From contig NC_080582.1 of assembly GCF_029962835.1 (NCBI RefSeq), positions 77,930,177 through 77,994,176 on the forward strand: 64,000 nucleotides of DNA, in the 5' to 3' direction. The first letter of the stretch is position 1. Every line of letters begins with the position of its first letter. The DNA is from Magnolia sinica. Taxonomy: Eukaryota > Streptophyta > Magnoliopsida > Magnoliales > Magnoliaceae. Shown in pieces: positions 1,200-32,306 of this stretch. The notes below the pieces were generated by a model. That model was not told the DNA's origin. It did no database searches and saw only the letters and a program-made list of their open reading frames with translations. The position numbers and the translations under genes were made by a program.

Positions 1200-2375
1200 C
1201 CCACGTGGCTCTTTTCCATCGCTTGGATCGAAATACTTACAATGCCTCTGTGGGTCCCACCCGTGTTGTTTGATCTGTACGGTTAAGATATGAGACTTCA
1301 ACTGATGGATGTAGCGGATGTTACAAAATTTACACTGTTGGGCCATGGTAACTCGGGTGCTGTACATGCTGCGTACAACCGTTGTTGTCAAGGATTCCCG
1401 TCCATCTTAGTTGCTTAAGTGTTACCCTTACCGTGTGGGGGCCACCTTGATAAAGGTTTTGTATATCCACGCCGTCCATCCTTTTTATTAGCCCATTTTA
1501 GTACTTTTTCCTAAAAATTAAGCATATATAAATCTGTCTTATTACGGGATTAGTCGCGTTTTTAGCGCTGGGTGGATAGAAAATTCTTGCTAAAGGGCTA
1601 CTAAACTAGGCTTAACGATTGCATGCGTTCGAGCGGCCATTCGTGATCTGTTTTTGATGAGGTGGGCCTTACATTGAACGACTTAGATTGGTGAATGTGG
1701 CAGGATTAAAGAAAATGGGTTTTCTCAGCCGGCGAGGAGGATGACTCATCTATCATGGCGATTTTTGGTTGATCGGTGGATCTGATGATCTAAGTCTCTT
1801 AATTGGTTCGGATGGTGTTAAGTAGGCTTGTGGGGTCCACCTTTTGGTGAAGGGAGGGCAGTAGATTAGGATGTGTTAAAAAAACATCTCGCGCCGTTGC
1901 AATTTCTCACTAAAAGCTCGTCAAATTGTCTGATCGCTACTAGGCTCCTGGCAGCCCTAGATCCAGCATTCCAGATTCATCGTGAGACTCTTCTAGAAGG
2001 CAGGGAAGGGTTGAGATTGCACCAGCGCTTAAAACGGAAAGATTCAGATTCTTTCCGCTTTCAGCCAAGGGCGGAACCATTTCCGTTAGGTTGGTGTGAC
2101 TAGGACTCTATTTTCCAGCTGAACAAAGGGGACGTGGATTTCTCCTATCCGATTGGTGTTTGCAGTTAGGTAGGTTGGGCCTGGGCTTGTGTTCAAACCC
2201 AAACCTTACATCGTGAGATCCGACCCTTTTTTCGGTCATTGATCTCTTCTTCTCGCGATGGACGGTCTGGATTAATCGATTAGATCTTCATTAGTGGGCA
2301 AAATCATGACAGCGGTTCGTCCTTTTGAATCGTAGCTGGCGGGAAAGAAAAGAGGAGGTTAGCATTCCATCTCGA
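1200..2375. other. Intergenic stretch without recognisable gene
   Basis: Mixed-composition sequence with a few short open frames that show no family resemblance. Phrases such as GTGGGGTCCACC occur near 1830, perhaps remnants of the foldback family, but no paired arms are visible here. Confidence 0.5.
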
Positions 2376-3479
2376 GGAAGCGGATTGGCTGGTGTACCAC
2401 ACACCAGCTATAAAAATCGGATTGCGTACCGACGCTCTTATCGTACTTAGTAAACTCAATTGGGCCCACCTTAAATGTATGTGATTTATCTACGCCGTCC
2501 ATCCGTTTTTCCATTTAATTTAAGTGGTTGATCCCAAAAATGAAGCATACCCAAATATCAAATGGATCATACCACAGGAAACAGTGGGGATAATGATTTC
2601 CACCGTTGAAACCTTTCTAGGCCCCATAGTAATATTTATTTATCATCCAACCTGTTCATAAGATCATACAGACATGGATGAAGGGAAAAAACAAATATAA
2701 GCTTGATCCAAAACTTCTGTGGCCACCAAAAAAATTCAACGGTAAAAGTTCAATTAAAAATTTTCCTGTGGTGTGGTCCATTTGAAAATTCTATATGCTT
2801 CCCTTTCTTTTCAGCCCTAAAATTATCTTTTAAAATTGATGGACGGAACGGATCAGATACATAAATCATGGTGGACCTTACAGAGTTTACTCAGTACGCT
2901 AAGTGTAGTGAGTAACTCACTACGCAATCCGCTTCCCCTATTGGGTACGTGTCGTGCGAAGAAGAGCGCCGCGCTCCTCGAGCTCCGAGTTGTACGAACA
3001 GTTCAAAGGAGATCAAAGTTACATGGGCCCCACAGTGATGTATTTTTTTATATCCACACCATTCATCCATTTTTAAAGATCATTTTAGAATATTATCCAA
3101 AAAATGAATCATATCCAAAGATCAAATGGACCACACCACAAATAGCAGTAGGGATGATGATTTTCACCGTTAAAAAATTCGTAGGGCCCACCACAACGTT
3201 TATTTTCCATCCAGTACGTTCATAAGGTCAGAAAGACCTGGATTAAGAGGAAAAACCAATTTCATATTGATCCAAGACTTCTATGACCCCTAAAAGGGTT
3301 TCAATGGTATACGTTCAATCCCCCGCTGCTTTTTTCTGTGATAATTATACCTGTCTTATTTTTTTCTCTAGCCTTGAGACGAGGTCGAAAATTTGATGGA
3401 CGGTTTGGATACAATACAATACATAAGTCAATATATCAGCTATATAGCTGATGTGTGGTACAGAAGCCAATTTGCTTCC
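2376..3479. mobile_element. MULE-like foldback element with nested copies
   Basis: The left end reads GGAAGCGGATTGGCTGGTGT and continues through ACCACACACCAGCTATA. The right end is its inverted complement, finishing ...CCAATTTGCTTCC. Flanks are CCATCTCGA (2367-2375) and CCATTTCGG (3480-3488), a 9-bp target duplication with two mismatches, as expected of the Mutator superfamily. Inside lie a second complete foldback (2418-2935) and another foldback core (about 3018-3435). There is no transposase frame. Confidence 0.7.
2418..2935. mobile_element. Nested foldback, GCGGATTGCGTAC-cap type
   Basis: The left arm CGGATTGCGTACC...TAGTAAACTC leads into GGGCCCACC and GCCGTCCATCCG. The right arm returns as GATGGACGG, GGTGGACC, GAGTTTACTCAGTACGC and TACGCAATCCG. 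The whole unit is a long imperfect palindrome of about 0.5 kb. The same cap and core recur at about 20957, 51130 and 60130. Non-coding. Confidence 0.7.
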
Positions 3480-4393
3480 CCATTTCGGGCAGGCTCGGGT
3501 CAGTTTCACCCGATATAACATTCGGCACCCTGCAGTTGTACGTGTTAATACGTACAAGCAGGTTGGCTATGGGGTCCACTAACTAAGTTCATGAAAATCT
3601 AGACCGTTGGTTAGTTTTTTTATGACTCCCTAGGGCTTTAATTCAAGGGTTTGGTAGATACAACGAATTGATGGGCCACACTATGAGGTATGGGTGTTTA
3701 TTTCTCATTTCCTACAGTGTCAATGGTTGGATTGGCCCAAAATCAGTTTCTAAGCTCCAGTTGTTCTCAAGTAGACTTATTTTGGGAGTTTATTTAGAGG
3801 GTGCTTGATTTTGGTTAGTACTCTTTTGGCTTATTATGAGCATGGTAAATCTTACATGGTCACATGGTCATTATCTCATAAATCTAATTTAATTTAGTAT
3901 TAATTTTTGGGAGGTGTAATTAATGGTGTTAATAGAGAGGTATTAATTCACGTGTAAGTTGAATTGATGGGGCAAGCACCGTCGTAAGAAGTGAGGGGTC
4001 ATTTGGTACAAAGCTCCCTGTTCTAAATCTACTCTTGATAAAAGTGACATGTTTTTCCATCCATTCAAACTTTCACTAAATTGGCCTCTCTTGTATTATT
4101 ATCTGAATTTTCAACCTTTTGGATTTTAAGGTACCAACAATCCTTTATATGTCCAGTTTTCCGACAATTCTAGTACTTCATTTTGCCTTTACACTTAGAT
4201 TTTGACCTTGATCATGAATTCCCTTCCTTCCGCTTAAAACTTTTTCCCCTAACGACCAATACATCCGTAGAAGAACCGTCACCACCATTCTTCTCCCTCA
4301 ACTGATTTGAATGAACTGAAATAACGATTTTGACATCAATGGTCTCCCTACCATGGTACAAAGTATTTACGAGGTTCTCGTAAGACTCTATAA
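3480..4393. other. Intergenic, no gene seen
   Basis: AT-leaning sequence with no supported coding frame, tRNA or paired termini. It ends at the TAA target site of the Harbinger-like element. Confidence 0.5.
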
Positions 4394-4962
4394 GGGCGTG
4401 TTTGGGCACTGGGATTGGAAGGGATTAGATGGGATGGAATTGCATCTGGTCTCGTGCCAATTCCACTCCTTGTTTAGGGAGGATGGAAAAGTTGTCGATG
4501 GAATTGCATTGGGTCCCCTGCCAATTTCACTCAATGTTAGCAAATTGTGTAGGTCCCACTATGATGTGTAGGTTAGATCCACACCGTCCACCCATTTTTT
4601 TAGATTATTTTAGAGCATGGGCCAAAAAATCAGGTTAATCTAAAGCTCAAGTGGACCCCACCATAGAAAGCAACGGGGATTGAATACTTACCATTGAAAA
4701 CTTCAATGGGGCTATATAAGTTTTGGATCTACCTCATTTTTAGGCCCATGTCATAAAATGAGGTTACAAAACAAATGAACGGTCTAGATATAACACGTGT
4801 GTTATTCTAAATAACTTTGAATGATGGTTAGTATATCCATTCAATGTACCACCTGATTACCAACAAAGCATGGAATTATTCTTATCCCATGGCAACAGGG
4901 TTATTATGTTTTTTTAATCCCATCCCACCGAATCCCTTCCAATCCCAACGCCAAACACGCCC
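4394..4962. mobile_element. PIF/Harbinger-like non-autonomous element (569 bp)
   Basis: The ends are GGGCGTGTTTGGGCACTGGG on the left and, inverted, GGGCGTGTTTGGCGTTGGG on the right. Both continue with GATTGGAAGGGATT. It is flanked by TAA on both sides (4391-4393 and 4963-4965), the TWA-type 3-bp target duplication diagnostic of PIF/Harbinger. The interior holds both arms of the abundant foldback core (GTCCCACTATGATGTG ... CCGTCCACCC). No transposase, so a MITE-class element. Confidence 0.82.
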
Positions 4963-4965
4963 TAA

Positions 4966-5339
4966 GAGAATTCAACGGGATTATCGAATGATCTTCCTTG
5001 TCAATATTCACCTCCACACTTATCAATTTGCAAAGTATTCTATTGAAATTGCTGATGTGTTCATTGAAATTTGTCCCTTCTGCCATCTTCACATTATAAA
5101 ACTGATTCTTAAAAAACAAATGATTATAAAGCAATCTTATTATGTACAGGTTCTCCAATTTCGCCCCTAATCTAGCCGTAGTCATCTTGCTAATAACATT
5201 ATATAAGACCTTATTGGCCAAACACCTTATTGACCTTATACTAACCACGTGACCAAATTTGATATTGAACCACGACATACATAGCTCAGGAGAACTATAT
5301 CACATTATACAAAATAGTGGTAGAACCATATCACATCAT
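4966..5339. other. AT-rich stretch, no gene seen
   Basis: The open frames here lack family resemblance and overlap on both strands. Near 5290-5350 a short motif (CATATCACAT-ATA-AAATAGTGG) is repeated twice in tandem. Confidence 0.4.
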
Positions 5340-5349
5340 ATAAAATAGT

Positions 5350-5965
5350 GGCGATTGATCATTAAAAACTTCTTATGGGCCACCAAAGTTTTAGATGAAG
5401 TTGAGATTCGTGTGGTCACTTCATCTAGGTCTTTGCTACCTTATAAATAGGTTGGATGGAAAATAAACATTTTGGTGACTGGCAAAAAAAATTTAATGGT
5501 TAGTATTCCCCACCTGTCATTGTTTCCCGTGGTGTGGTCCACCTAAGATAAACATCAACTTCGTTTTTTGGATCATGTGCAAAAATGCTTTTTAAAATAT
5601 GATGGACATTGTGGATGTAATCCAAATGCATCAAGCTAGGTCCACAGTCATGAATCCACTGACCACGGCATGGAAGCGACACCCTACTTAAACAGTCTTT
5701 ACTTGGTGAATTGGGAGGCTAGGAGGGGCCCACTGTTATGTTTGTGAGAAATCCATTCCGTCCATTTGTTTTTTCTGGATCATTTAAGAAGATGAGATAA
5801 AAAATGTGGCAGATCCAAAACTCAAGTGAGCCTCGGGACAGGAAACAATTAGGATTAAGTGTCTACTATTGAAAACTTCATGGGGCCACATAAATTTTGG
5901 ATGAGGCTATCATTTTTGTTTTCATTTATCTCAGTGGGAATGACCTTGTCTGACACAGGGGAGGA
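5350..5965. repeat. Two partial foldback arms, head to head
   Basis: About 5350-5660 is a right-half copy of the foldback family (ATTAAAAACTTCTTATGGGCC ... TGTGGTCCACC ... GATGGACATTGTGG). About 5725-5925 is a left-half copy (GGGCCCACTGTTATGTTTGTGAG ... CCGTCCATTTG ...). Each has lost its partner arm, so these are truncated copies. Confidence 0.6.
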
Positions 5966-6390
5966 CGTGATAAGGATGATCATCGTCTTCCTCAGTGATA
6001 ACTATGAATCCATAGAGTTTCTCTAGACTCCTCATCGAGATTCTTTAAATCCACGTGCGATGAAAATAGAAATAATTTATAATAATTTGATTTAAAATAA
6101 TTGATGATAAAAATGAATTTACAATCCTTTAAATAGTGAACTCAAACCTAGGAAGAAGTTTTAGACTCAAACTCCAATCAAACTTCTAAAAAAAATGTGA
6201 CTTATTATAAATAGTAAACTTGATATTTATACACCATCATAATTCGTACTAGACTCCATTGTTTTTTGCCAAAATATTATCTAATTCGGTCATAATTAAA
6301 ACTTACTATTTATAGTAAAAACAAAAACAAAATGGACTTTTGACCATCAATCTGATGGAATCTCATAAATCTAGCATGGGCAACCCATCA
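5966..6390. other. AT-rich intergenic stretch
   Basis: No coding frame or structured element recognised between the truncated foldbacks and the TGTAATGCCC palindrome. Confidence 0.4.
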
Positions 6391-6960
6391 TATGTAATGC
6401 CCAGGGTTTTTGGAACCCGAGTATATGACTCGTTTTCCAAAAACCCGGGTGTTAACCTTTAAAGATGGGAAAATTTCAGGTATTTTTTTTTTTCTTTTAT
6501 CAGAGCTAGCAGCTTAGCGGAATATTAACAAATCAAGCATAAAAGAATTTTCATATATATTCAAAATGTACAAGCGGCTGCCCAAATGATTTATACAAAC
6601 CCATGTCTCATACTAATAAATATAGAAATGAACAATTTAATACATAAAACTAAATAAAATGTAACTAGTCTTGAGCAGCAAGATCACATAGGTTCTCTTG
6701 GCAAATACAACCATGCATCCTTGACAATTGTACCCTGCTTCTCATGAATATCACTTAAGCCATCTGCATTACCTGTACGGTTATATATTCGATGAATGAG
6801 TGGCCAGCTCAGTGTGAATTTCTCTCAAGATTACACATCATCGCATTAGTTAAGCATAGTTTTAAACAATAAGACATGCAAAATAATCCATGATGCGATC
6901 TTGTTTAAGTGCATGGATGTGTAAATGCACATCAACTAGGGATGCATATCCAGTTAGCCA

Positions 6961-7697
6961 AGTGAATGGACCTTTCAAACAATCAGTCCATTCATGCAAG
7001 AGAGTGAGCCTTTCAAACAGTCAGCTCATTCAACTTACAAGGTAGTGGGCCTTTCAAACAGTCGGCTCCCTTAAACATGAATGGGCCTTTCAAACAGTTA
7101 GCTCATTCATGCTTGGGGATGGGCTTTTCAAACAGTCAGCTCATCCCTAATAGAGGAATGGACCTTTTAAACAGTTAGTCCATTTAGGCAAGAGAATGGG
7201 TCTTTCAAACAGTTGACTCATTTAACTTACAAAAGAATGAGTCTTTCAAACAGTCGACTCGCTCAAGTAAGATAGTGTGCCTTTCAAACAATCTGCTCAC
7301 TTAAGTAAGAATGAGCTTTTCAAACAGTCGGCTTATTCAAGCAATACGACGGGTCTTTCAAACAGTCGGTCCATTAGGCAAGAGAATAATGGGCCTTTCA
7401 AACAGTCGGCTCATTCAACCTGCAAGAGAACAAGTCTTTAAAAACAGTCACCCGCTCAAGTAAGACAGTGGGCCTTTCAAACAGTCGGCTCATTCAACCT
7501 GCAAGAGAACAAGTCTTTAAAAACAGTCACCCGCTCAAGTAAAACAGTGGGCCTTTCAAACAGTCGGCTCACTTAAGCAAGAATGGGCTTTTCAAACAGT
7601 CGGCTCATTCAAGAATGGGGATGGGCCTTTCGAACAATCGGCTCATCCTAAGTAAGTAAATGAACCTTTCAAACAGTCAGTCCATTCATAATGCAAG
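6961..7697. repeat. Hairpin-forming minisatellite, 19 units
   Basis: Units of about 36-42 bp share the core CTTTCAAACAGTC. In most units the bases before and after the core pair: TGGAC with GTCCA, TGAGC with GCTCA, GAGTC with GACTC, GGATGGGC with GCTCATCC. The arm sequence changes between units while pairing is kept. A 79-bp double unit is repeated almost perfectly (7391-7469 and 7470-7548), showing recent slippage or unequal exchange. No open frame runs through the array. It is not a CRISPR array, since the variable parts are arms rather than spacers. Confidence 0.9.
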
Positions 7698-9332
7698 TAC
7701 CATGAATGCATGATTACTCTCATCCATTATTATTCCAATTTGCAAGCAGAAAATTTAGGAAAGCTTAAAGGACACTATGGGGGGCTCGCTACCCAGCATA
7801 GGCCGACAGTTCAGACATAGTATTTCATTCCACCATCCCCGGCTCATGAGACTCCATCATTAGGATGTTTAATAGCATTATCATCAACCAGTGGCTAATC
7901 AAAATCTAACAAATGGGACTTGCCATTGCATGGTCACACAGAATAATACATCAAGACACCTTGGGCAAATATGCAATTATGGCCGCAAGAGGCAAATATC
8001 AATAAAAAAAGGCCACATAAGCTTAACAACCCATGGATGGTAAGCCTACATCAATGTTCCATTTAATCCATTAATCAAAGTAGCCATAGATGAGGGTCCA
8101 TTACAATCACAATCAGTTAAATTACATCCCAAGTCTGGATGTACATATATAAGTGAGGTTTTTTCCACTGATAGATGTAGCAGTTCAAGTTCTACAAGCA
8201 ATCCATAAACAATATATAAACATGAAAAGATACACAAGTACAACATATATCATACAAGCTAAGTGTTGAGCATGTGATTGATAATCAGATTCAATATCTA
8301 ATACAAGTTATCATGAGTTAGAGATATCAATTATCACTTGAAAATAAAATGAACTATTACTTAAACTAACAAGGAAGAGGAAAGCTTAAGGGGAAAGATT
8401 CATCACCTCCTGGCTTGGTTTGCTTACTAGTGTTGCCACAAGGTGTGCATGCTCCTTAGGATTGAATTTTACCCTAAATTGTGCATTCATAGAGTTAGAT
8501 TCAAGTCTTGTATTTTGCATGTGGCTAAAGTCATACTCCCGAGTTTGGTTTGAGTTCCTAGTTTTATCATTCAATTTATGTCAACTGAATTTGAATTTCT
8601 TATTAAGAGTGGGGAAATGATTTACGTTCCTTTATGGGATGGAGTGGCCTAATCCAAACTGGTCCAAGGGAGGCTTTCTAAGCAAAGCCCTAACCCCAAA
8701 CTTGAGCTGACCCAAGAGAGGCACGCTGCTTTCCTACCAACGAGAAATGGACAGGGACTCGATGAGTCACCGAGTCACACTATGTGGGTTCCTCAAATGG
8801 AGAACTTTGCTCAACTTGTTTGCCTACCATCATTGGCATGGGTTGCTGAGATGGCCAGTTTCAACGATGGTTGATTGGCCATGGATCGGATCGCACATCG
8901 GGCCTTGGCCCACTGAGTTGGCCTAAATCCGAGTTGCCCCACTACTGACCTGAAGGACTAAAGCCTATGTTGGTCTGGGCAAGGCCCTGACTTTGGAGGC
9001 CTTTCCGGTGTGAGTGAGGAGTTGGGCCACCTAAACTCGGCAAGGCACTCCCAGCGTATCTGGTGAACGTGGGGCTGGCTAAGTCAACCCGATGATTCAG
9101 AAACCACACAACAACCCCAATAGCTTCAACAGGTCCACTCGGCAAAGCGAGAAGTTGGATTCAAGCCCGAACCCCGCTGGACTCCAAGTTCACTCACCTT
9201 CTCTTTCTCTCACCTTCTTCTTCCTCTGTTCTTCCTATTTTCCTTCAGGACCAGGGCTACTGGGTTGTCCCAACCCGCCCCGAGTCAAGTTAACTTGATC
9301 GCCTGGTGTAGTGCGACACCACAGCTGCGTCG

Positions 9333-9335
<3 letters not shown>
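7698..9335. other. Non-coding body of the palindrome-bounded segment
   Basis: Short open frames on both strands resemble nothing recognised. The part from 8640 onward is GC-richer, with many GAGTCAxCGAGT-like words (8757-8790, 9280-9300), and includes the donor-like AAGGTGAGTG on the minus strand near 9190. Confidence 0.35.

Positions 9336-9373
<38 letters not shown>
9336..9373. repeat. (CT)n microsatellite
   Basis: An uninterrupted CT run of about 38 bp. On the minus strand it is a GA run about 50 bp downstream of a TATAAA box, so it may be leader sequence of a leftward transcript. Confidence 0.95.
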
Positions 9374-9377
<4 letters not shown>

Positions 9378-10838
9378 GTTTGCTGGAATCTCGGATGCAA
9401 TCCTTAGGCGTGCGTGGTCCATTTATAGCTTTAGGGTTGGTGCTTGACTGTGCTTGCCAGCCGTTTATTTATTGCCATTAGCTGCTTGGATGAACAACCG
9501 CACCCCTCATTTCAATTTGCATGGATGGAGTTTATAGCTTTGGATTGTCATCCAGGACTATGGGCACCAAATGAGCAGTTCTGATTATAAGATGGGGCCC
9601 ACTAGAGGTTGGTGGGTTCTTCGGCCATATGAGGAAGATGACCGACCCTTTGATGACATTTCATCATCGGACGGTTGATCCGTTGGTTAGAAACTCGTGG
9701 AGGGTGCAGATTCATCTCTTAATCATAGTGGGGCCCTGTATAATGAAGTTCATTGTAAGCGTCAAATCTTAGATAATTTGATGGTCGGATGGCTTTCAAC
9801 TCTGATCAACCTTCTTCTACGAGTCATAGGGACCCAATGACCGTCTAGATAGGGTTTTTTAGTTGAGCTTTAAAGGTTGGTTGATGAAGTTCCACTATTC
9901 TTTGATTGATGGTTCGTTGATGAGTGGACAATGGTGAACTGATGATTTAGGTCTCGATTTGCGGATTCCCATCAATCCGACAGTCGGATCATCTTTAGAT
10001 CTGACATTCAAGGTCCTAAGGGTCCTATGATTTGTTTAGATGAAGATTCGTGGTACGGTTAGTGGCGCGTTGGTCTAAGTGTGATGATCAGGTAGCAGGC
10101 CTTTCAGTTGGACAATATGAATCTGACCAATGATGAATTTGATGATCTAAGGCTCAAGATTGAATACATATGGTTCAATCTAGCTAATAAGGCGGGATTT
10201 AGACTTTCATTGCCATTGGAATCCTAACAATACAGTGGGTTCCTAAAGATCAATGTCACTTTCGTGATGAGATAATTATTTGTTCTTGAGAATCAATGGT
10301 CAGATGAATTGATATATGAATGAAGATTGCACTAGGCGGTCAAGATGGATTGATTGAGGACCACTAGATGATTGATGTGTAAGGTAAGTTACGTATATTC
10401 TCACACACATGCAATCCAATTTATATATTGTAATGCCCGAGTATTGAAAAATACGGGGTGTACATCTTAGCAGGGTTGGTTGGCTCAATTAGCTTCTCCT
10501 GCCCAAAATCAAATATGATACACGATAAAAACTCATTACGCATTGCAAGATAGGATTGTTTTAGGGTTATGACTGTCCTAATCACTTATGCATCGGGCCT
10601 TCTCCGATTCATTTTTACCATGAAAGTATCCGCGACCGGCTCTTCATCATTATGAAAGCCATCGGTTGCATTTAAGCATTATGGTAGATCCAAGGGAAGT
10701 TTCAATGGTAGTCATTTCCTTACACACTTTTTCCTCTCCAGTGGCCCACTTGTTTTCTGGATCTACCTCATTTTTGAACTGGTGTCCTAAATTCCTAACA
10801 TTATCCAGAAAAATGGATGCACGGAGTGAATTTATTAC
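9374..10838. other. No gene recognised
   Basis: Sequence with many GATGATCTAAGGTC-like words but no supported coding frame. Contains the second TGTAATGCCC palindrome at 10431-10470. About 10690-10830 resembles a single foldback arm (GTTTCAATGGTAGTCATT ... TGGATGCACGGAGTG). Confidence 0.4.
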
Positions 10839-11394
10839 GGACGCGGATTAGCTACTGAACTCACGGCAGCAACTATTGGCACTGAAGTGACGTCACCACT
10901 TTCTGTGAGCCCCACCCTGAAATATGTATTGTATCCACACCCTCTATACATTTGGAGAGATCATTTTAGGACATGTTGGAAAGAATCAGGCAGATACAAA
11001 TGTCAAGTAGACCCCCACCATAGAAAAACAGTGGGATTGAACGTCTACCATTAAAAACTTTTTTGGGCTACAGAAGTTTTTGATCAAGCTGATATTTGTG
11101 TTATCCCTTATTCCATGTCTGTGTTAACTTATAAACAGGTTGGATCTCACGTAAACATCATGGTAGGCCTTGGGAAGGTTTCAATGGTGGGTCACTATCC
11201 CCACTGTTTTCTGTGGTGGGGTTCACTTGAACTTTGGATCTAACTCATTCTTTGGACCATGTCCTAAAATAATCTCTCGAAATGGATGGATGGTATGGAT
11301 ACAACACATACATCATGGTGGGTCCAAAGAACATGATGACGTCACTTCAATAGTCGACTCTCTTCTGTCGTGTCCTGGTAGCTGATTCGCCCCC
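10839..11394. mobile_element. MULE-type foldback (556 bp) with perfect 9-bp TSD and paired GTGACGTCA sites
   Basis: ATTTATTAC flanks the element exactly (10830-10838 and 11395-11403). The termini GGACGCGGATTAGCTACT and, inverted, GGGGGCGAATCAGCTACC form the TIR. A GACGTCAC palindrome lies inside each end, near 10890 and 11338. The rest is the common foldback core (GAGCCCCACCCTGAAATATG ... CATCATGGTGGGTCC). No transposase. The 9-bp duplication places it in the Mutator superfamily. Confidence 0.88.
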
Positions 11395-11403
11395 ATTTAT
11401 TAC

Positions 11404-11675
11404 AAACATCACGGTGCGCCCCACCTAACACTATATCATGCAATTCCCGTCCTTTTCTCAGCGGTCTCTAAAACAGAGTTAATGAATTGGAACCGTCACC
11501 ATCAGTTCTAGGGCCCGGGCTCAGGCTCGGGATGGGCTTTGCAGCGGACTGTTAGGTCATGCTTGGGCTACACCCGTTGTGGCGCGGGCTGTTTTTGGAC
11601 CTCCATTGAGTGATACGGGCCGGCCTTTGACAGATGTTTAACCTGGCCCTAACCCGGCCCATTGATACACCTGCT
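11404..11675. other. Short intergenic stretch
   Basis: GC-richer sequence between two foldback elements (GGGCCCGGGCTCAGGCTCGGG near 11512). No gene seen. Confidence 0.4.
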
Positions 11676-12214
11676 TTGACGCGGATTTCCTGCGAAAGCC
11701 TTTCGCAGGAAGTTCCTGCGAAAGGATGCTGTGTGGGGCCCACCACTATGTTTTTGGGAAATGTATTCCGTTCATCCGTTTGGTGAGCTCATTTTAGGAA
11801 AATCGACCAAAAACGAGGTGGATCCAAAACTAAAGCGGGCCACACGAGAGGGAACATTGGGGAAAGAAATACCTACCGTTGAAACCTTTTTGGGCTCCAC
11901 CTTGATGTTTATATGCCATCCAAACCGTTTATAAGGTTATTAACACAGAGATGAAGTGAAAATACAAAAAATTTAGCCTGAAAGAAAGCTTTTATGGTCA
12001 TGAGAATGTTTCAACGGTTCTAACTGAATCCCTAATGTTTCCTCTCGTGTGGCCCACTTGAGTCTCGGATCCACCTCGTTTTTTGTAGATTGTCCTAAAA
12101 TTATCTTGCAAAACGGTTGAACGGAGTATATTTCCCAAAAACAATGGTGGTGGCCCCACCCAGCCTCCTTGCGTAGGAACTTCCTGCAAATGCTTTCGCA
12201 GGAAATCCGGATTT
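11676..12214. mobile_element. Foldback element, GCGGATTTCCTGCGAAAG-cap type
   Basis: The left end GCGGATTTCCTGCGAAAGCC continues with TTTCGCAGGAAGTTCCTGCG and then GGGGCCCACC. The right end mirrors it: GGCCCCACCCAGCC, GGAACTTCCTGCAAATGC, TTTCGCAGGAAATCCG. The cap contains its own small hairpin (CCTGCGAAAG / CTTTCGCAGG). It truncates or sits beside the LINE remnant on its right. I could not fix the target duplication. Confidence 0.72.
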
Positions 12215-12983: not shown

Positions 12984-15088
12984 GGGCCTGTTTGGATGCC
13001 TGTAAGTTCTTTTAAGTTGTAAGTGACTTACCTGTAAGTCACTTATAGGTGAAAGTTACTTACAGGTAAGCTGTTTGGATGTAAGTTGTAAGTCACTTAC
13101 AGGTAAGTTAGTTTTTCTGTTTGGATGACCTGTAAGTTACTTATAGGTAGAAAGATGAATATTCACATCGAGCAAAGCTTAGATTGGGGAATCATTCTAA
13201 AATGTTATAATCATATTAAAAAAACGTGGGATCAAATATGTTATTTTGTTAAGCCCATCAAGATGAATATTTGAGATAATTATTAAGCTAAACCATTTAT
13301 CGAGTGGGCTATAAAAGTGGGCCCACGAATTCAAAATATCTATAATATGGAGTAATAACTTAATTTAAGCATTGAGAATAAACTTAAAAACATTAATAGA
13401 AAATCTACTAATTAAATTACATTACCAATGTCTTCTTTAACTATAGAAATTAAATTTAAAACTTTTTACTGGGGAATTATCCTCCCCAACCATTCATTCC
13501 TTTGAATAGGACTTATTCCAAAGTGTACATCAATGGCCGGCATTAAACTGAAGAAATGCTATCCATGGTCAGCCCTACTGCAGCCTATTCATCTGGATTG
13601 CTGAACCATGGCTCCCATTATAGAAATCAAGAATCAAATGTACTGTGGATATTTGCAGTTGAACAGTTGTTAATGATCAAGTGAAGAATTGGGACATGGT
13701 CCATCCATAGTGGGTCCATTTGAACAATGGCCTTGATTGCAAGGGCCATAAGAATAAATAGGATTTATGTACCAGATACATGATGGATTTACGGTTTTCT
13801 AATCCAGGCCACTGGTCCATATAAGGGAACTGTGGTTGCTGGCCAATGAAAACTTACACTGTAAGCATACGTCCCACCAATCAAATTTTAATGGGCTTCT
13901 ACTATGAATGGAAATGCGCCACAGTCCATACAAACTAGAAAATCCAAACCATCTAGAAATGTCAAGCAAGGTGGGCCTAAAATCCCTGATGGAGAAACTG
14001 CAGTATATTTTAACATGTCATTTCTTCCTTCGTGAAAAACTTGGCAACACAAGCAAGGTGGGCCTAAAATCCCTAATGGAGAAACAGTTGGGTGGAATGG
14101 ATATATAACACATCATCAAGGTGGGCCCACGGCAGGGGTAACACCAACTATCGTGTTACCAGTAACGCAATCAGATTCAGTTGGGCCCAATGTAGTTTAT
14201 CCAATCTGTCCATCCATTTTTTCATCTAGATGTAGACGTTGAGCCATAAATTTAAGAATATCCAAAGCTCAAGTGGCCCATACCACAGGAAACAGTGGAA
14301 ATATTGATTTGGATAGTTGAAACCCTTCTAGTGCCCATAGAGATCTTTATTTGTCATCCAAGATATTCATAAGATCACAAACACATGGATGAAGGGAAAA
14401 TAAAATAAAATCATCTTGATCCAAAACTTCTGTGGCCCCCCCAAAATTTTTAACGGTATACACTCAATTCACACTATTTCCTATCTTGTGGTCCACTTGA
14501 TCTTTGGATATAGCTAATTTTTAGGATCAGGATTTAAAATTAAGTATTAAAATGGATGGACAGTGTGGATCAAATACATATATCATGGATGATCCCACAG
14601 AGTTTACGCATTACTCAGCACGCGATCCCTTCCGTTTTCAAAGGAGAAAATAAGGTAGATGAAACCCTACCGTTTTAGGAGGAGAAGAGACGGAAGGCGG
14701 TAACTGCAGCGAGAGATTGCAGAGACGGAGAGAGATTGCAGAGAGGGAGGGGGAGAGATTGCAGAGACGGAGAGAGATTGCCGTTTTCAATGGCTGGTGC
14801 TTCTTCTTCATTGGCTGGAGCTTCATGGCTATAATGGTGGTTGGTGGGTTGGTGCGTTTCTCCCTCTTCCCCTCTTTTTAAAAATCTGACCGTTGAGCCT
14901 GTAAGTGACTTACAGGGAAGTGACTTCCCACCCCCATCCCCCTGCAGTTTTTTGGTAGATTTGCCTGTAAGTGACTTACAGGTTGTAAGTTACTTACAGG
15001 TGATTTTTCTCCCCCAAACACCACCTGTAAGTGACTTCCCTGTAAGTCACTTCCCACTTACCCAACTTACAGGCATCCAAACAGGCCC
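12984..15088. mobile_element. PIF/Harbinger-like element, 2.1 kb, non-autonomous
   Basis: The left end GGGCCTGTTTGGATGCCTGT is repeated as an exact inverted end at 15088 (ACAGGCATCCAAACAGGCCC). TAA flanks both sides (12981-12983 and 15089-15091). Subterminal regions carry many copies of AAGTGACTTACAGG and its complement, likely transposase-binding repeats. The interior has no transposase frame but includes a nested foldback (about 14145-14632) and a repeated AAGGTGGGCCTAAAATCCCT word (about 13969 and 14059). The element lies between two stretches of possible LINE-derived sequence. Confidence 0.85.
14145..14632. mobile_element. Nested foldback copy
   Basis: The left arm ACGCAATCAGATTCAGTTGGG leads into the core (CCAATCTGTCCATCC). 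The right arm returns GATGGACAGTGTGG, GATCCCACAGAGTTTACGC and CAGCACGCGATCCC. It resembles the GCGGATTGCGTAC-cap class, diverged. Confidence 0.6.
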
Positions 15089-20444: not shown

Positions 20445-20920
20445 AGGACGTCACCAAGTTCTGTGGAGTGTGGACCCCACCATATATATATATATATGTT
20501 ATATCCATACCATCCATCCATTTGGCGAGATCATTTTATGTCATGATCCCAAAAATGATGCATATCCAAAGTCAAAGTGGACCCCACCACAGAAAACAGT
20601 GGGGACAGTGACGCGCACCGTTGAAACCTTCCTAGGGCCCACCATGATGTTTATTTGAGATCCAACTTGTTCATAAGTTCACACAGACATGGAATAATGG
20701 AAAAACATAAATATCAACCTGATCGAAAACTTCTGTGGCTCCCATTAAGTTTTTAATGGTAGGCGTTCAATCCCCACAGTTTTCTTTGGTGGGGTTCACT
20801 TGAGCTTTGCATCTGCCTCATTCTTTGGCTCATGCCATAAAATGATCTCGCCAAATGGATAGACGGCATGGATATAACAGATATATCATGGTGGGGTCCA
20901 CAAAACTTGGTGGCGTCCCT
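20445..20920. mobile_element. Nested foldback, GGACGTCACCAAGTT-cap type
   Basis: The left end GGACGTCACCAAGTTCTGTGG runs to GACCCCACC. The right end is GGTGGGGTCCACAAAACTTGG followed by TGGCGTCC. Both arms include CCATTTGGCGAGATCATTTTA or its complement. A well-preserved palindromic copy with a (TA)n insertion near 20482-20498. Confidence 0.75.
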
Positions 20921-20956
20921 AGCTAATTTGTGTCAAGCCTGTAACAGCTTTTTTGT

Positions 20957-21475
20957 TGCGTACTGAGTAACTCGTACACAATATCGTACTAAGTAAACTC
21001 TCTTGGGCCCACCATGACTATATGTGGCTTATCCATGCCGTCCATCCGTTTTCTAGGTCATTTTAGGGGTTAATCCCAAAATTGAAGCATATCCAAAGCT
21101 CAAGTGGACCACACAAAAGGAAACAGTGGGAATAATGATTCCACCGTTGAAACCTTTCTGGGGCACACAATGATGTTTATTCGTCATCAATACTATACAT
21201 AAGATCATACAACCATGGATGAAGGTAAAACATAAAAAATCAGCTTGATCTAAAACTTATGTGGCCTTTAAGAATTTTTCAACGGTATATGTTCAATTCA
21301 CATGGTTTCCCGTGGTGTGGTCCACTTGAGGTTTCGATATGCTTCATTTTTTACATGAATACCTAAAATTATATGGTAAAATGGATGGACATAGTGGATA
21401 AAGTATATAAATCATGGTGGGCCCCTTAGAGTTTCCTCGGTATGCTCAACACCAATCAGTGTGTTCACGATGAAG
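20957..21475. mobile_element. Nested foldback, GCGTACTGAGTAACTC-cap type
   Basis: The left arm GCGTACTGAGTAACTCG ... TAAGTAAACTC leads to GGGCCCACC. The right arm is GGTGGGCCCCTTAGAGTTTCC with a decayed cap. Same class as 2418-2935 and 51130-51641. Confidence 0.65.
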
Positions 21476-21489
21476 TAGCATGTGCGACT

Positions 21490-21990
21490 TGGCTTGGTAA
21501 TCTGTGGGGGCCACTGTAATGTCTTTCTACCATCCAACCTCTTGATTGGGTCACACTGACCTGGATGAAGTGAAAATACAATTATCATCTTGATCAAAAA
21601 CTTTCATGGCCCGTAAAATGTTTTTAATGGTGGGATTCAATCACTACTGTTTCCTTTAGTGTGGTCCACTTGAGATTTGGATCTATCTCATTTTTGGGGA
21701 CCAGGTACTAAAATGATGTTCTGAAACAGATGAATGGAGTGGATTTGTCACAATGATAAAATTGGGCCCCACATAGTAAGAGTAATATGGTGTTACCCGG
21801 GTAACACGGGAGTGGCTCCAGTGGATCCCCGAATCCACCAGGTGCATGGGGCCCCTAAGTGTGGGGCCACCTTGATTATGTGACTAAATCTATGCCGTTC
21901 ATCTATATTAAAAACTAATTTTAGGGCATGATCCAAAACTTGAAGCATATCCAAATCTCATATGGACCATAGTACGAGCAGAGGATGACC
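21490..21990. repeat. Further foldback arms inside the hAT-like element
   Basis: About 21500-21780 is a copy whose right arm ends AATTGGGCCCCACATAG, followed by the palindrome GTGTTACCCGGGTAACAC. About 21850-21975 is a truncated left arm (GTGGGGCCACCTTGATTATG ... GCCGTTCATC). Confidence 0.6.
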
Positions 21991-22960: not shown

Positions 22961-25461
22961 GTCAGTACCTGGAATCCTTGAATTTATTTATTGATTGGGT
23001 GTCTTCTATGTGATTACTAATAGATTGATATAACTGCATTTTGCGCGCGTGTTTTCCTCAACATCCTCATCTAACATTGCACAACATCTTTAAGCATTTT
23101 CCAGATGTGGTTTGAACATGTGAAATCCTTTGCATCTTCATTCTGTTATTTATTTGTGGCTATGTTATTATATAATTTTCAGCTTGTTGTCTTTTACTTG
23201 GGTTGGTCCTTGAAAGTTCGTTCACAAAGACCACAAAAATAGTGCATATTTGGGTATTCAAAACCAAAATTTTGGGTGATGTGGATTTTCATATGCAAAA
23301 TGAGAATCATGAGATAGGTATATCCATTGCATATGACACAGATTATGCAAGAGTTTAAAACAAATACAACATTTGCAACTTTGGGCCACCTTGATGTATT
23401 TATTATGTATCCACTTTGTCCATCTGTATTTCCAGACCATCTTCTTTTTTTTTTTTTTTTTTTTGAAGACACAGGGTGTCCCCACCTCTTTTTTGAAGTG
23501 AGACTAATCCCTGCGGATACACGCAATCACCTACAGTGAGACTAATCCCTGTGGATACACTTTGTGCATCCGCATTTCCAGATCATCTCAGGGCATTATG
23601 CTAAAAGTGAAGCAGATCCAATTATCAGGTGGACCATATCACAGGAAACAGTGGGATTCAGGCCACCATGAAAAATCCATTTATCCCTAATACATTTAAA
23701 ATGATACTGCCAAATAACTTGTTAAACGAGACTGCCAGATTTCTAAATTGTCTATGGGAGTTTTTTGAGGATTCCATGTTAGTTTTCCATATCTACATGG
23801 CTTTTTGAGGATTCTATGTTAGTTTTCCATGTTTAGAAATCTCTGTAACCCAATCCCAGAATTTAAAGCTCCATGGAAGAGCAAATTTAACTGACCAACA
23901 GTTTCTAAATTATTAGAACTAGTTTAAGATAATCTAGCCATGCTACCAAGGACCTGTTTGGATACCACCAAATAAGTTGCATTTTCTACTTATAGTAGTA
24001 GATACGTAACTTATTTGAGATAAGTAAGTTTGGTTTAAGATTAATTACAAGTAACTTTTTTTATTTACTTCATCACTTCAGCTGAATAAGTACAAACCAA
24101 GATAACTACATGATGCACAAGATAACTACACTACATGATTCCATTCATTGATACACATCCTAATTCAAGAGATTCTCCCTTGATTGCACAATGCTCAATC
24201 GGGAGTAGGATAGAATTCAGGTGCAGGAACGAGTAAGAAACCAAATCAGGAGCCAGATCTTGGACTGGAACAATGCACAAAAAGTTCCTACAACCAACTA
24301 TATATAGTGTAGGTGAAAAAATTACAAATATTGAATTTCTTAAGGTAAATTCTTAGAAAACAAGGTTCAAAACGACATGGGACTTGGAAGTTTGGTCAAA
24401 TGTGTCCCACCGTATCACAATGTCATATGCTGGGGCTTTATCTTTGAATCTGGATTGTCTTCCAATGATCCAAATCGTTTATACAATTAGTCTAAACAGG
24501 TGTGATAGATACAAAACAAATAAAACATCTTAAATACCCATGTTTAGCAATACCTATAGCCATGCCCATATATCAACTATATTGAGCAATGTCCATGGCC
24601 ACGTATAAAACCCATTTCAACTAATAAGCATTGTCACATTTATGTATAGACAAATACTCTTATCATAGAAACAGACTCGTAAGTCCGCAAAAATCCATGC
24701 TTGAAAATCATGCTTAACTTAACAAACTTAAATTTCAACCAATAAGCATCAATAGCCTCTATAGCCTCTCACTCTAACCAATGGCTAAGAACACGCCCTT
24801 TAGCTCTACATCCTTGGCGAGATCACTACTCGCCTTCAGCTCTACGTCCATGATGATGATACATAAACATTAGATTTATTGCCGATACAACAATAGATCC
24901 ACAACTTACAGAATAATAGATGGATATCTAATACAGTAACATATTCTCTTATTTCTTGTAGTGCCTATATGCAATGAATGGGATCCTATGTAGATAGGGG
25001 AGCAGTGGAAATGAAAAAATAGATCAACTTAACTGAGAAGCATCCCAATTTATCAAGATTCCAAACCCTTCAGTCATAACCCCCAAAGAGACTGCACCAT
25101 GAAGCGGTTCCATCAGTCCAACAAAATCAACAAGTTCCTCATCTATCAAGTTTCAGCAAAAACTAGGCACTCACACCACATTGTCACCCTCCTATAAATC
25201 TCTAATCTCAATACCAAGTTTTTAAATCACATTTTGAAATCTAATCCTAGCAGTTAGTAGCATAAATGGATGGAGAAATTTAAATCAGCTCATCACTTGA
25301 TTTAGGTTAGTTTCATAAAATCAGATAAAATATAATATAAAAAAAGTTTTGTTCCTCTTCAACCTTATCTTGCTGAAACCAAAAGATGTTGAATTAATGA
25401 AAATTCTTTTGCCTACTGCAAGACAACTATGAGCTTCCCCTAGGTTTCTTTTTTGTTGTTA
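22961..25461. other. Intron-like or intergenic sequence with foldback fragments
   Basis: About 23377-23455 and 23562-23680 are two truncated left arms of the foldback family (GGGCCACCTTGATG ... TTTCCAGACCATC; GCATTTCCAGATCATC ... CACAGGAAACAGTGGG). A GTGAGACTAATCCCTG-GGATACAC word repeats at about 23499 and 23536. Near 23947 ACCTGTTTGGATACCACC resembles a Harbinger-type end with no partner found. The rest is AT-rich with no supported exon. Confidence 0.4.
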
Positions 25462-28422: not shown

Positions 28423-29501
28423 AGTCATCTGTTCGACGTTCTGGTCCTCGTCCTAAGACCGCACGCGTGTTGTAGGGAGTCCCACTTTAACTGGGACGAT
28501 GGCCTTGACTCCGAATGAAAGGGAGAACGGGGTCTCCTCGGTTGAAGACCGAGCTGTAGTCCTATAGGCCCAAAGTACGAAAGGGAGTTCCTCGACCTAG
28601 GCACCTTTTGCCTTCTCGAGCTTGGTTTTGAGATGATTTTTTATTATTTTGTTGAACGCTTCGACTTGTCCATTCGATTGAGGGTGCTAAGTTGACGAAT
28701 ATGCATTTCGGATGCCGAGCTGCCTCCCATTGTCCAAGACGATGGTGTGCGGGATACTGAATTGACAGATGATATTCTTCCACACGAAATCGGTGACTTT
28801 ATGCTCGGTGATTCTAGCCACGAGCTCAGCTTCCGCCCACTTTGTGAAATAATCGACTCCTATAATGGCGTATCGAGTTTGCCCTTTGCCCGGGGGTAAT
28901 GACCCTATGATGTCAATACCCCATTGAGCGAACGACTAGGGTCCAGTCATGGGAGTCAACTATCGCATTTCTGAGCAAAGCGCTTAGCGTCCTCTTGGAG
29001 GGTCGGCTAGAAGTAGCCTTGCCGAATGACCTTGTGGGCTAAGTCTTGGCTGCCAGAGTGATTGCCACATATTCCTTTGTGAATTTCTTTCAGGACGTAG
29101 TCGGACTCTTCTGGTTGGAAACACCTGAGATAGGGCAGGGAGAACCCCTTTTTATATAGGATGTCCCCAATCATCACGTACCAGGCCGATTTGAGTTTGA
29201 GTCGTCGTGCCTCCAATTTTTCATCGGGGAGCTTTCCTTCTTTGAGGTACTCTATGATCAGGTCCATCCAGCTTGGGGTCATGCACATGGGTAGAATGAC
29301 ATTCAACCTAAGCTGATTGATGCTCGGCTCGGCTAGAAACTCTATTGGGACACTCTTTGGGATGACCCCTTCAATCACGGACGCTAGCTTTACTAGCGCA
29401 TCCGCCCATGAGTTTTCCGTCCTTGAGATTAAATTGACACTACACTTTTGGAATTTGCCCATCAATTCTCGAGCCTCGCACAGGTATGCAATCATTCGCA
29501 T
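28423..29501 (-). pseudogene. Integrase (N-terminal and core) of the Tat element
   Basis: The frame at 29501-29007 ends with the linker (LKLKSAWYVMIGDILYKKGF) and the HHCC finger start (HKGICGNHSGSQDLAHKVIRQGYF). The CC half (AKRFAQKCDS) follows a stop. The core domain to about 28440 persists only as short shifted pieces. It is cut by the TRIM insertion at 28418-28422. Confidence 0.75.
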
Positions 29502-29510
29502 CTCCTTTGC

Positions 29511-30432
29511 CTAGTATTCTTCGGAGATCTGGTTGACGACAAGCTGAGAGTCGCAATGGACTTTGAGGACCCGAGCCCCCATAGTCATCGCTAACCTGAG
29601 TTCTGCTAGCAGCGCTTCATATTCAGCCACGTTGTTCGAAGTGCGGAAACCAAACCTCAGAGCATACTGGATTGATGTTAGGTCGGCGACTAGGAGGACG
29701 ATCCCGGCTTCGCCATGTTTGGAGTTGGACAATCCGTCCACATACAACGTTCAGATGCTTTGGTCAACTTTTGTCGTCCGAGCGTTTTTAATCAACTGGC
29801 CGAGCCTTGTATCATTTGGTGTGGTGGTTAATCGGCAGGCTTTGCTTTCTTGACTAGACCTGCTGGCTGGGTCAAGAGGTTCTTCCGGGCTGTTCGAGGC
29901 AGCCTTGTTCTCATGACCAGTAAGTCTGACGATAAAGTCAGCCACTGCCTGACCCTCAATGGCGCTTCTCGGCTGGTACTTGATATCGAACTCGCTGAGC
30001 TTAATTGCCCATTTAGTGAGCCTCCCTGATACCTCGGGCCTCTAAAGTACCTGGCGGAGAGGCTGGTCGGTTAAGACTATTATCGTGTGAGCTTGGAAGT
30101 ATGGGCGAAGCTGTTGAGATGATATTATCAGAGCTAGAGCCAGTTTTTAACGAGGGCTCTACCTACTCTAGTTTCGATAGCAAGGGGGGTGATCTTAGGT
30201 ACTGTTTCAGCCGTTGGAATGCTTGCTCGCAATTTGGGGTCCATTCTGCCTTCTTATTACCCTTCAGCTGCTGAAAGAAGGAGAGGCATTTGTTGGTTGC
30301 CCTGGACACAAAGCGATTGATGGCGGCGATCCTGCCAGTGAGGCACTAGATCTCCTTCACCGTCCGAGGTGACTTCATATCTAGTAGAGCTTTGATTTTG
30401 TCGGGGTTTGCTTTAATTCCTCTCTGGCTAAC
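29511..30432 (-). pseudogene. RNase H and archaeal-type RNase H of the Tat element
   Basis: After RT, the frame continues through stops with KANPDKIKALLDMKSPRTVK, GRIAAINRFVSRAT and CLSFFQQLKG, the RT thumb and connection. Next is a distinct RNase H frame at 29747-29511: MYVDGLSNSKHGEAGIVLL, NNVAEYEALLAELRLA, and HCDSQLVVNQISEEY. The D...E...D set is visible. This second RNase H between RH and integrase is characteristic of Tat. Confidence 0.82.
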
Positions 30433-31443
30433 CTAGAAACCGACGAACTTACCCGAGCCGACTCCGAACGCACACTTGGTCGAGTTCAGCTTCATTTGGT
30501 ATTGCTTTAAGATTGACAAAGCCTCGTCGAGGTCAGCTGCGTGGTTGGCGGCCTTGATGCTTTTCACCAGCATGTCGTCGACGTAGACTTCCACGGACCG
30601 TCCAATCTGTTGAGCAAACATTTTGTTCACGAGCCACTGATATGTAGCTCCAGCATTATTCAATCCAAAAAGCATGACCCTGTAACTGTAAAGATCTTTG
30701 TCGGTGACGAAGGTCGTCTTTTGCTTGTCACACGGGTGCATGGCTATCTGATTATAGCTTGAGTATGCGTCCATGAAGCTTAAGAGCTCATGTTCGGTCG
30801 TGCTATCGACCAGCTGGTCGATTCTGGGGAGAAGAAAGTTGTCCTTGGGGCAGGCTTTATTCAGGTCGGTATAGTCGACGCAAACTCGCCACTTCCCATT
30901 GGACTTCTTCACCAGGGCAACATTGGTGATCCAGTCAGGGTAATAGACTATTTCGATAAACCCTGCATCCAAAAGCTTGTCGACCTCTTTTACGATTATG
31001 GCATATCGCTCTGGCTCAAACACTTTCCTCTTCTATCTGGCCGATTTGTAATCAGGATCTACGTTCAGCTTGTGGACCATCACTTGGGGGCTAATGCCTG
31101 ACATATCCTGATGGGACCAGGCGAATACGTCGGCATTGCGTCGGAGGAGATCCATCATTTGCTTTTGGGAGTCGGGAGCCAACAATGATCCGATCTGGAC
31201 TGATCGGGTCGGATCAGACTTGTCAAGGGGAATAGTCAAAAGATCTTCTATCGGAGATCCTCTTTCGGAAGAATCTTCCCTGGGGTCAAGCGAGTTGACC
31301 ACTAGGGTCTGGACGGGAGCTTTAGTTCTCAGAGCGGTTGAGTAACACTGCCGAGCTTCACGCTGGTCTCCTTGGAGATAGCCGACCTCGTCATCAGTAA
31401 AAAATTTCATCATGAGGTGATATGTGGATACCACGACTCTCAT
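30433..31443 (-). pseudogene. pol: Reverse transcriptase domain of the Tat element
   Basis: Minus frames 31443-31033 (connector ending MVHKLNVDPDYKS) and 31023-30433 (RT). The RT shows [43 protein letters not shown] and the catalytic YVDDM. It ends at a stop within the FVGF-VSQRGI stretch. The YVDD aspartates are intact but the protein is interrupted, so no active polymerase is expected. Confidence 0.88.
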
Positions 31444-31447
31444 GGAG

Positions 31448-31808
31448 TTAAGGGACAGTCATCCGATGATGACATTGTAGGCTAAGGGGCGGTCCACCAC
31501 TAAGAAGTTGATTTGGTGGTCTGATTCTACCCTTCTCCTGCAGTGACAGGGAGTATGATAGAACCCTCAGAGATGACTTCATCTCCCGCAAAGACATGCA
31601 GCGGGGTCTTGACGGGTCGGAGACATGACCTATCAATCCCCATCTTATTGAACACTTTGGCAGAGAGTATATCGGCTGAGCTGCCTGTGTCTACGAGAAT
31701 GCGATATACTTTTCGACTAGCTAGAGTCATAGCGACGACTAGAGCATCGTTGCGCAGTTGCTGGATACTGTGAGCGTCCTCGGAAAATGTCAGATTGCAT
31801 TGGCGCAT
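31448..31808 (-). pseudogene. Aspartic protease domain of the Tat element
   Basis: The minus frame carries ALVVAMTLASRKVYRILVDT with GSSADIL directly after: the DTG catalytic triad in the usual retropepsin L-V-D-T-G-S-S-A-D context. The frame breaks after about 31527 and resumes in another frame toward RT. Confidence 0.8.
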
Positions 31809-32306
31809 CCGCTGTTCTTTGGAGGGTCTGCTGGTGAGATGAATATAATGGTCTGGGTCGGTACTCTGAGCACGGGCCTTCCGGGCTTGGTTTGAGTCAC
31901 CTCCCGGCTCACCACAGATAGTAAAGATCTCGAGATTACCGTCGGCGGCTCTGTTGGGTTGTTCATCTTTCCGACCTAATTGTTCCCCTTTGATATACTC
32001 TCGCAGATGCCCGCTGTGGATGAGGGCTTCGATCTCTTCCTTGAGGTCGAAACAATAGCTGGTGGTGTGGTTGTGGTCGCGGTGGAAGCGGCATTATTTT
32101 CGCTTATCCCGCTGGTCTGCGTTGGTCTTCATACAACTCAGCCACTTTAGCAGTCGTTTATCTCGGACTTCCAGAAGGACTTGTTCCGGCGAGGCATTGA
32201 GAGGGGTGTATGTACTAAACTGACTCTCAGGACGTTTGCTCGGCCGCTGACCTCTTGTTTTATCCTCGTCCGGTCTCTTTTTGTTAGAGGTCGCCCGGGG
32301 TGGGGC

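Follow-up and report, generated by a model that had tools for sequence, protein, structure and literature searches.

The Magnolia sinica window (the whole stretch of DNA analysed, 64,000 nucleotides) carries, inside the LTR of a retrotransposon, a tandem array of hairpins whose arms changed in matched pairs between hairpin types. This pattern suggests that the element carries a folded signal. Judged by comparison of its sequence with that of its relatives, the array is a non-coding LTR module of a large Ty3/gypsy-type family with insertions both old and recent.

The units are spaced 36-42 bp apart between 6961 and 7690, and Tandem Repeats Finder reports 19 copies of a 38-bp repeat at 6959-7690, with matches of only 65%. 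The features of the array, in window coordinates, are:

6961..7690, no strand assigned: array of 19 hairpin units, each consisting of left arm, loop, right arm and linker (unit alignment)
7390..7547, plus strand: tandem duplication of 79 bp, units 12-13 and 14-15, 99% identical (repeat comparison)
7428..7458, plus strand: unit 13, a decayed copy of a hairpin type (stem alignment, copies compared)
7507..7537, plus strand: unit 15, like unit 13, with the majority state of the other copies paired (stem alignment, copies compared)

A preliminary description of this DNA had proposed the 19 hairpin units, and they are present, with stems paired beyond shuffling: standard pairs occupy 139 of the 171 cells of the 9-bp stem compared with 131.0 (sd 2.5) when right arms are re-dealt, a number reached by 16 of 10,000 right-arm shuffles. 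Its statement that the arms usually remain self-complementary agrees with this count, except that a G.T pair occurs in some of the arms it quoted and reads as an A.C mismatch on the opposite strand. That every unit keeps the loop was true in part: the loop, TTTCAAACAGTC on the + strand and GACUGUUUGAAA in the element's sense RNA, occurs as the exact 12-mer in 11 of the 19 units, is off by 1-2 bases in six, and is altered and one base longer in units 13 and 15. These last two units (AAGTC...CACCC) had been put forward as non-pairing controls, a use that has to be given up: they are decayed hairpins, and the majority state of unit 15 has 8 of its 9 stem positions paired once the register is shifted by one base, a shift set by hand for the longer loop. 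Unit 13 could be aligned in only 2 of 39 copies. The array of the window is a higher-order repeat of about six unit types, and a search of the window against Rfam 15 gave 0 matches at the gathering score.

Changes in the two arms are coupled. On the 18 distinct units of the window, double-changed cells numbered 13 against 4.9 (sd 1.8) and the covariation score was 0.404 against 0.305 (sd 0.028), each reached in 0 of 500 shuffles; with the register slid by 1-3 columns the score was never above 0.134. The preliminary description held that paired arm changes in several unit types are not expected of a drifting tandem repeat, and they do exceed what shuffles with the same phylogeny produce. Under a null with the same unit tree (unit 13 left out as identical to unit 15), the window's covariation score and its double-changed cells were each reached in 10 of 2,000 replicates, and the percentage paired did not exceed the null (833/2,000). 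Seventeen arrays with 191 distinct units (L125, L131-L144, the window and L089, from 40 subfamily arrays, 14 diverged arrays and 26 young-relative loci) gave 180 double-changed cells against 65.6 (sd 20.9; 0/400) and a covariation score of 0.378 against 0.255 (2/400) under the tree null, the percentage paired again not lying above it (135/400); the trees behind these nulls were built from 32-nt units and are hence weak. A per-branch parsimony count on a larger unit tree showed no excess on inner branches, the ratio of double-paired to broken changes being 2:47 on inner and 4:84 on terminal branches. We weigh the column statistics above this branch count because stepwise change via single mismatches is invisible to the latter. 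In the most diverged arrays, L132 and L138, arm matching within units is hardly above matching between units (Watson-Crick match 0.46 vs 0.43 and 0.59 vs 0.57, respectively; 0.73 vs 0.60 in the window). Inversion of palindromic arms, which had been suggested as a source of the paired changes, finds no support, as the rarer purine/pyrimidine orientation was present in 26 of 4,268 Watson-Crick cells of 665 pooled hairpins and no inverted loop was seen inside the window's array at up to 2 mismatches.

The published genome of Magnolia sinica has a size of 1.84 Gb, of which LTR elements are reported to make up 48.9% (PMC10999834). A pattern of two loops 18-40 bases apart matched this genome 570 times in forward and 655 times in reverse orientation, giving 1,225 matches, with 0 and 0 for the reversed control pattern. 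An array search of the genome yielded 568 first-look candidates, of which 40, window included, were scored, the best pieces of the others being 75-97% identical. Three loci in a set of 20, each 10 kb long, are segmental duplicates of the window, and the other 17 are not; matches extend to about 8408 in many of these loci at 76-83% identity, and past ~8408 copies other than close sisters are ~57-70% similar among the matches listed. Loci L105-L123 were fetched only around the match and may be cut. The three duplicates, L085, L086 and L092, lie at 77.61-77.94 Mb on C10, within 0.4 Mb, with arrays 91-97% identical and the left flank ccatcata; going by this likeness we regard them as a segmental duplication of the window stretch and not as separate insertions. 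Outside the genome, viral contigs gave 0 matches and 3 unrelated ones, and the 73 single-match stretches in GTDB genomes, which were not inspected one by one, are taken as chance.

The following features describe the LTR that carries the array:

6393..10464, minus strand: solo LTR of a Ty3/gypsy-type retrotransposon, 4,072 bp (from ends, length and shared edge; orientation from the primer sites, gag and reverse transcriptase of relatives)
6388..6392, no strand assigned: target-site duplication, left copy, TCATA (LTR end comparison)
10465..10469, no strand assigned: target-site duplication, right copy, TCTTA, one mismatch (LTR end comparison)
9421..9427, minus strand: candidate TATA box TATAAAT, located ~1.04 kb from the LTR start, with the array ~1.7 kb further downstream (sense reading of the LTR)
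9336..9377, minus strand: (GA)n tract directly after the candidate TATA box (repeat finding, sense reading)
8373..8409, minus strand: 37-bp block that has changed little: 19 of 21 loci, counting the window, reach an alignment score of at least 30 of 37

Because the minus strand is the sense strand, the LTR starts at 10464 and ends at 6393. The 6393 edge (within 6387-6395) is common to 10 of the 17 loci other than the segmental duplicates, and the LTR ends read TGTAAYRCCC...GGGTGTTACA, some copies having 5-bp target-site duplications; the window's LTR measures 4.07 kb, that of L088 4.87 kb and that of L102 5.04 kb. When 15 copies with a recognised edge were checked for these duplications, they were perfect in two (L088, L092) and had one mismatch in two (L098, L101); in L089 the other end was possibly seen, in L104 weakly, and there was no match in nine including the window, whose one-mismatch duplication came from a separate inspection of the ends. 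No primer site was found at the edge of the window's LTR, which is therefore best called a solo LTR. In sense coordinates of this 4.07-kb LTR, the 37-bp block lies at 2.06 kb and forms the border between the conserved primer-site half and the fast-evolving start, and the array follows at 2.77-3.50 kb, ending ~570 bp before the LTR 3' end. If transcription starts at TATAAAT, as we infer, the RNA leader would include the array, with about 570 nt between it and the primer site; the array's position in the sequence thus probably places it in the 5' leader of the element's RNA, between start site and primer-binding site.

Several other features share the window. A palindromic repeat family (GTCCATCC...GTGGACC...CAGTGGG) is scattered over the first 26 kb in many copies, often as inverted pairs, and copies are found at:

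2475-3306, 4564-4710, 10717-12190, 14186-14617, 20490-21990 and 23564-23655: palindromic repeat family copies

Positions 189-1053 hold a tandem duplication of 428 bp with 95% matches, minus-strand ORFs at 29007-32963 resemble, by eye, gag and pol pieces of another Ty3/gypsy element, and an open F-box/DUF295 (SKIP23-like) gene at 56942-58180 is 97% identical to a Magnolia sinica protein.

The orientation of the LTR follows from its relatives. Pairs of young LTR pieces, in three of the three pairs taken, are 99.36-99.55% identical over 1.1 kb and lie on the same strand 8.87-8.93 kb apart. In one of these young copies, the primer site TGGTATCAGAGC is found 3 nt after the LTR end, followed by a gag ORF (Retrotrans_gag, 1e-19), and a purine-rich tract AGGGGGGTAGA directly precedes the other LTR; this copy also has a reverse-transcriptase-like stretch (141 aa compared, 81% identity), in a place where no ORF of at least 100 aa is open. 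Within the subfamily to which the window belongs, the primer site was also found at the LTR edge in L097, L094 and L102 (0, 1 and 2 mismatches, respectively); the remaining 14 loci with a readable edge, the window among them, lacked it there. Relatives of gag lie behind the primer sites of L094 and L097, that of L097 continuing into the adjoining L124, where stretches of RVT_1 (5.4e-25) and RNase H (1.6e-28) come after gag. Primer sites, gag and reverse transcriptase are all on the strand opposite to the loop. A reading with the + strand as the element's sense and the array in U3 had been considered as well, and is ruled out by the primer site and gag of the young copy.

Single loci illustrate the range of ages. 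L145 (C1:70183501-70188500) is young, with LTR pieces 99.4% identical, gag open and the reverse-transcriptase-like stretch frame-broken, and is probably non-autonomous. L097 together with L124 (C7:64588563-64607999) represents an old element, along which the LTR, a primer site without mismatches, a gag relative, reverse transcriptase and RNase H succeed one another; L097 is its 5' LTR, because primer site, gag and reverse transcriptase follow behind it in the right orientation. L097 and L114, 13.8 kb apart on C7, had been dismissed as an LTR pair on the basis of 86.8% identity over the array and of their not being among each other's top-three matches; this dismissal was not retained, and L114 may be the second LTR of the L097 element. 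Among the 20 ten-kb loci of the window subfamily a second LTR piece was seen only in L100 (nested, 69%), and a partner LTR would be missed because the loci reach only ~8 kb past the array. Some arrays were broken by later insertions (L092 around 2005-6215, L100 around 6668), and in L100 an LTR end of the array's own retrotransposon family abuts a hairpin loop. According to a title in the reference list of PMC11963269, palindromes are a frequent target of plant LTR elements. The primer-site type and the 3' motif are reminiscent of the Tekay/Del chromovirus lineage, a likeness confined to these two traits.

Comparison between copies dates the compensation. In 39 aligned subfamily arrays (the interrupted L092 omitted, the segmental duplicates L085 and L086 kept), the majority state at pairs 2-8 comprises 110 Watson-Crick, 11 G.T, 5 A.C and 7 other pairs of 133, and changes between copies are mostly C-to-T (151/640) and G-to-A (269/640). 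Compensation between copies is not beyond chance: over nine pairs, 38 double-paired changes were observed and 32.5 expected, and over pairs 2-8, with the segmental duplicates L085 and L086 and unit 13 omitted, 28 against 21.6, with unpaired doubles at 17 against 10.9. Between unit types the picture is different. Compared with type A, and again with unit 13 omitted, the double-paired changes of the types at pairs 2-8 number 8, the single-paired 6 and the broken 3; the cells between copies, counted from Watson-Crick majority pairs, include 25 that are double-paired and 308 that are broken (Fisher 4e-7, or 2e-4 with doubles counted once per each of 5 positions; the types are hand-named, some of the 8 doubles are not independent, and the between-copy cells are not events). 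Since about six types make up the array as a higher-order repeat, the compensations predate the spread of the window subfamily. Inserted copies decay: the solo LTR of the window is dead, and its hairpins decay mainly by C-to-T and G-to-A changes.

The same observations may be read without any function, as a founder palindrome duplicated into a few unit types whose history gives the appearance of compensation. The higher-order structure fits this reading, since with about six types the independent events are few (5 positions), and so do the lack of excess compensation between copies, the negative per-branch count and the weak within-unit excess in the most diverged arrays. It would not lead one to expect that the tree-based nulls are exceeded both in the window and, for double-changed cells, in the 17 arrays, and we consider it quite improbable.

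The preliminary description had also proposed folding the whole array on both strands. As RNA, the window array folds with z of -5.3 on the + and -3.4 on the - strand (20 shuffles each), and in 19 of the 19 copies tried the array RNA folds better than shuffles on both strands (12 shuffles each), the folding excess over these copies being -32.5 kcal/mol for the antisense strand vs -26.3 (p=0.018). With wobble pairs counted, the two strands of the 665 hairpins pair nearly equally, in 4,861 and 4,935 of 5,985 cells. On the loop strand A.C outnumbers G.T in 11 of 14 diverged arrays, so that the sense RNA would pair better. The ratio of G.T to A.C is 59:114 against 125:172 in decay (L085 and L086 omitted) at pairs 2-8 without pair 4 (p=0.096), and 116:133 with pair 4 included (p=0.74 against decay); on the unit tree, pairs read on the loop strand changed to G.T or to A.C in a ratio of 20:28 on inner and 31:46 on terminal branches. 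A strand preference of wobble pairs, as expected from RNA selection, is thus not clear in either the branch counts or the comparison with decay. An excess of G.T on the + strand (11 vs 2, majority state, outside units 13 and 15) had been taken as a sign of RNA selection there, and this argument fell because the sense strand was corrected and 10 of these 11 pairs, all at stem pair 4, go back to a single inherited state.

Covariation without a clear strand preference would fit a process at the DNA level. Quasi-palindrome correction, a form of template-switch mutation, creates paired changes in the arms of hairpins, and arm-to-arm copying of this kind, by a template switch within the hairpin during reverse transcription or replication, could have coupled the arms without structural selection. 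The array undergoes reverse transcription in every cycle, as is established for LTR elements, and the own stems of some units reach 10-12 pairs in the majority state. Correction would remove G.T pairs and would have no reason to conserve the loop, whereas the G.T at stem pair 4 persists in 10 of the 19 units (majority state) and the loop, as the most conserved part, is left unexplained; we therefore regard arm copying as unlikely.

This conservation of the loop extends to related arrays. The related sequences consist of 14 arrays that have diverged and 26 short stretches from young relatives, and the likeness of their flanks, judged by eye, suggests the same position in the LTR. The number of units per array ranges from 2-4 in young elements to 22 in L135 (24 at a laxer limit). 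In eight of eight arrays, likeness between units is 0.74-0.90 for the loop, 0.41-0.68 for either arm and 0.35-0.45 for the linker, figures in which loop conservation is inflated because relatives were found via the loop.

We propose that the array acts as a multivalent hairpin signal in the LTR leader, with stems kept paired while elements are active, an explanation to which, taken as a whole, we give an even chance. From 2 to about 22 tandem stem-loops would be present in the RNA leader, each offering the same near-constant loop to a binder, possibly Gag/nucleocapsid or a host RNA-binding protein. The stem would need only to be double-stranded, in any sequence, so that its sequence could change while pairing is kept, and repetition of the unit would allow multivalent binding, for packaging, export or translation of the leader. 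Selection would have acted in active lineages, with inserted copies left to decay. With rather less confidence, we suggest that the long R-U5 leader of these plant LTR retrotransposons may hold a new cis-acting retroelement signal, in which 2 to ~22 stem-loops with a near-constant 12-nt loop and covarying stems serve as an RNA platform for multivalent docking, its number of units evolving through duplication; such novelty is possible but doubtful.

A role as DNA has to be weighed against this RNA signal, in which the array might influence transcription or chromatin through cruciforms or palindromic binding sites, or form hairpins in minus-strand cDNA, which, given the orientation, has the sequence of the loop strand. 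In Tnt1, the BII boxes are reportedly its tandem repeats. Precedents exist in that Tnt1 and retroviral U3 repeats are, like the array, tandem repeats within the LTR, described as having a possible role in transcription (PMC3601003), and the BII boxes of Tnt1 are reported to bind defence-induced factors (PMC3316501). As far as these sources were available to us, the Tnt1 and retroviral repeats are placed in U3 and thought to be transcriptional, whereas the magnolia array would lie downstream of the start site, ~1.7 kb from the candidate TATA box, and has covarying stems. A dimeric DNA-binding protein needs fixed half-sites, but here the arms vary, complementarity stays and the middle is constant. 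A DNA-level role accordingly appears improbable to us, at a level similar to arm copying.

Among RNA signals, the leader and export hairpins of retroviruses (packaging signals, the constitutive transport element) are stem-loops that recur in retroelement RNA and keep their unpaired bases constant; the array resembles them, with no claim of homology, and has many more units (up to ~22). The 3' UTR repeats of Tat-lineage elements (Ogre, Retand) are, in the portions of the two sources available to us, described as short, family-specific and non-coding tandem arrays of Ty3/gypsy elements with a length that varies between families, and are in this respect like the array (PMC7004042, PMC11963269). 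They sit between pol and the 3' LTR, whereas the magnolia array is part of the LTR itself, close to its 3' end, and the word "hairpin" is absent from the main text of both papers. In the portions of this literature open to us, known plant LTR-element repeats lie elsewhere or in U3, and none is described with covarying hairpins; our literature search likewise found no account of retrotransposon tandem hairpins with a conserved loop and compensatory arms.

Within one genome, 1,225 sites match a pair of adjacent units exactly; the families that contain them differ in age, and dead copies supply a neutral yardstick. Selection on structure and arm-to-arm copying should therefore be testable against each other by counting. 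To our knowledge, little is known of RNA signals in long plant LTRs. The loop GACUGUUUGAAA in the sense RNA is a candidate signal, which may serve the packaging, export or translation of plant retroelement RNA.
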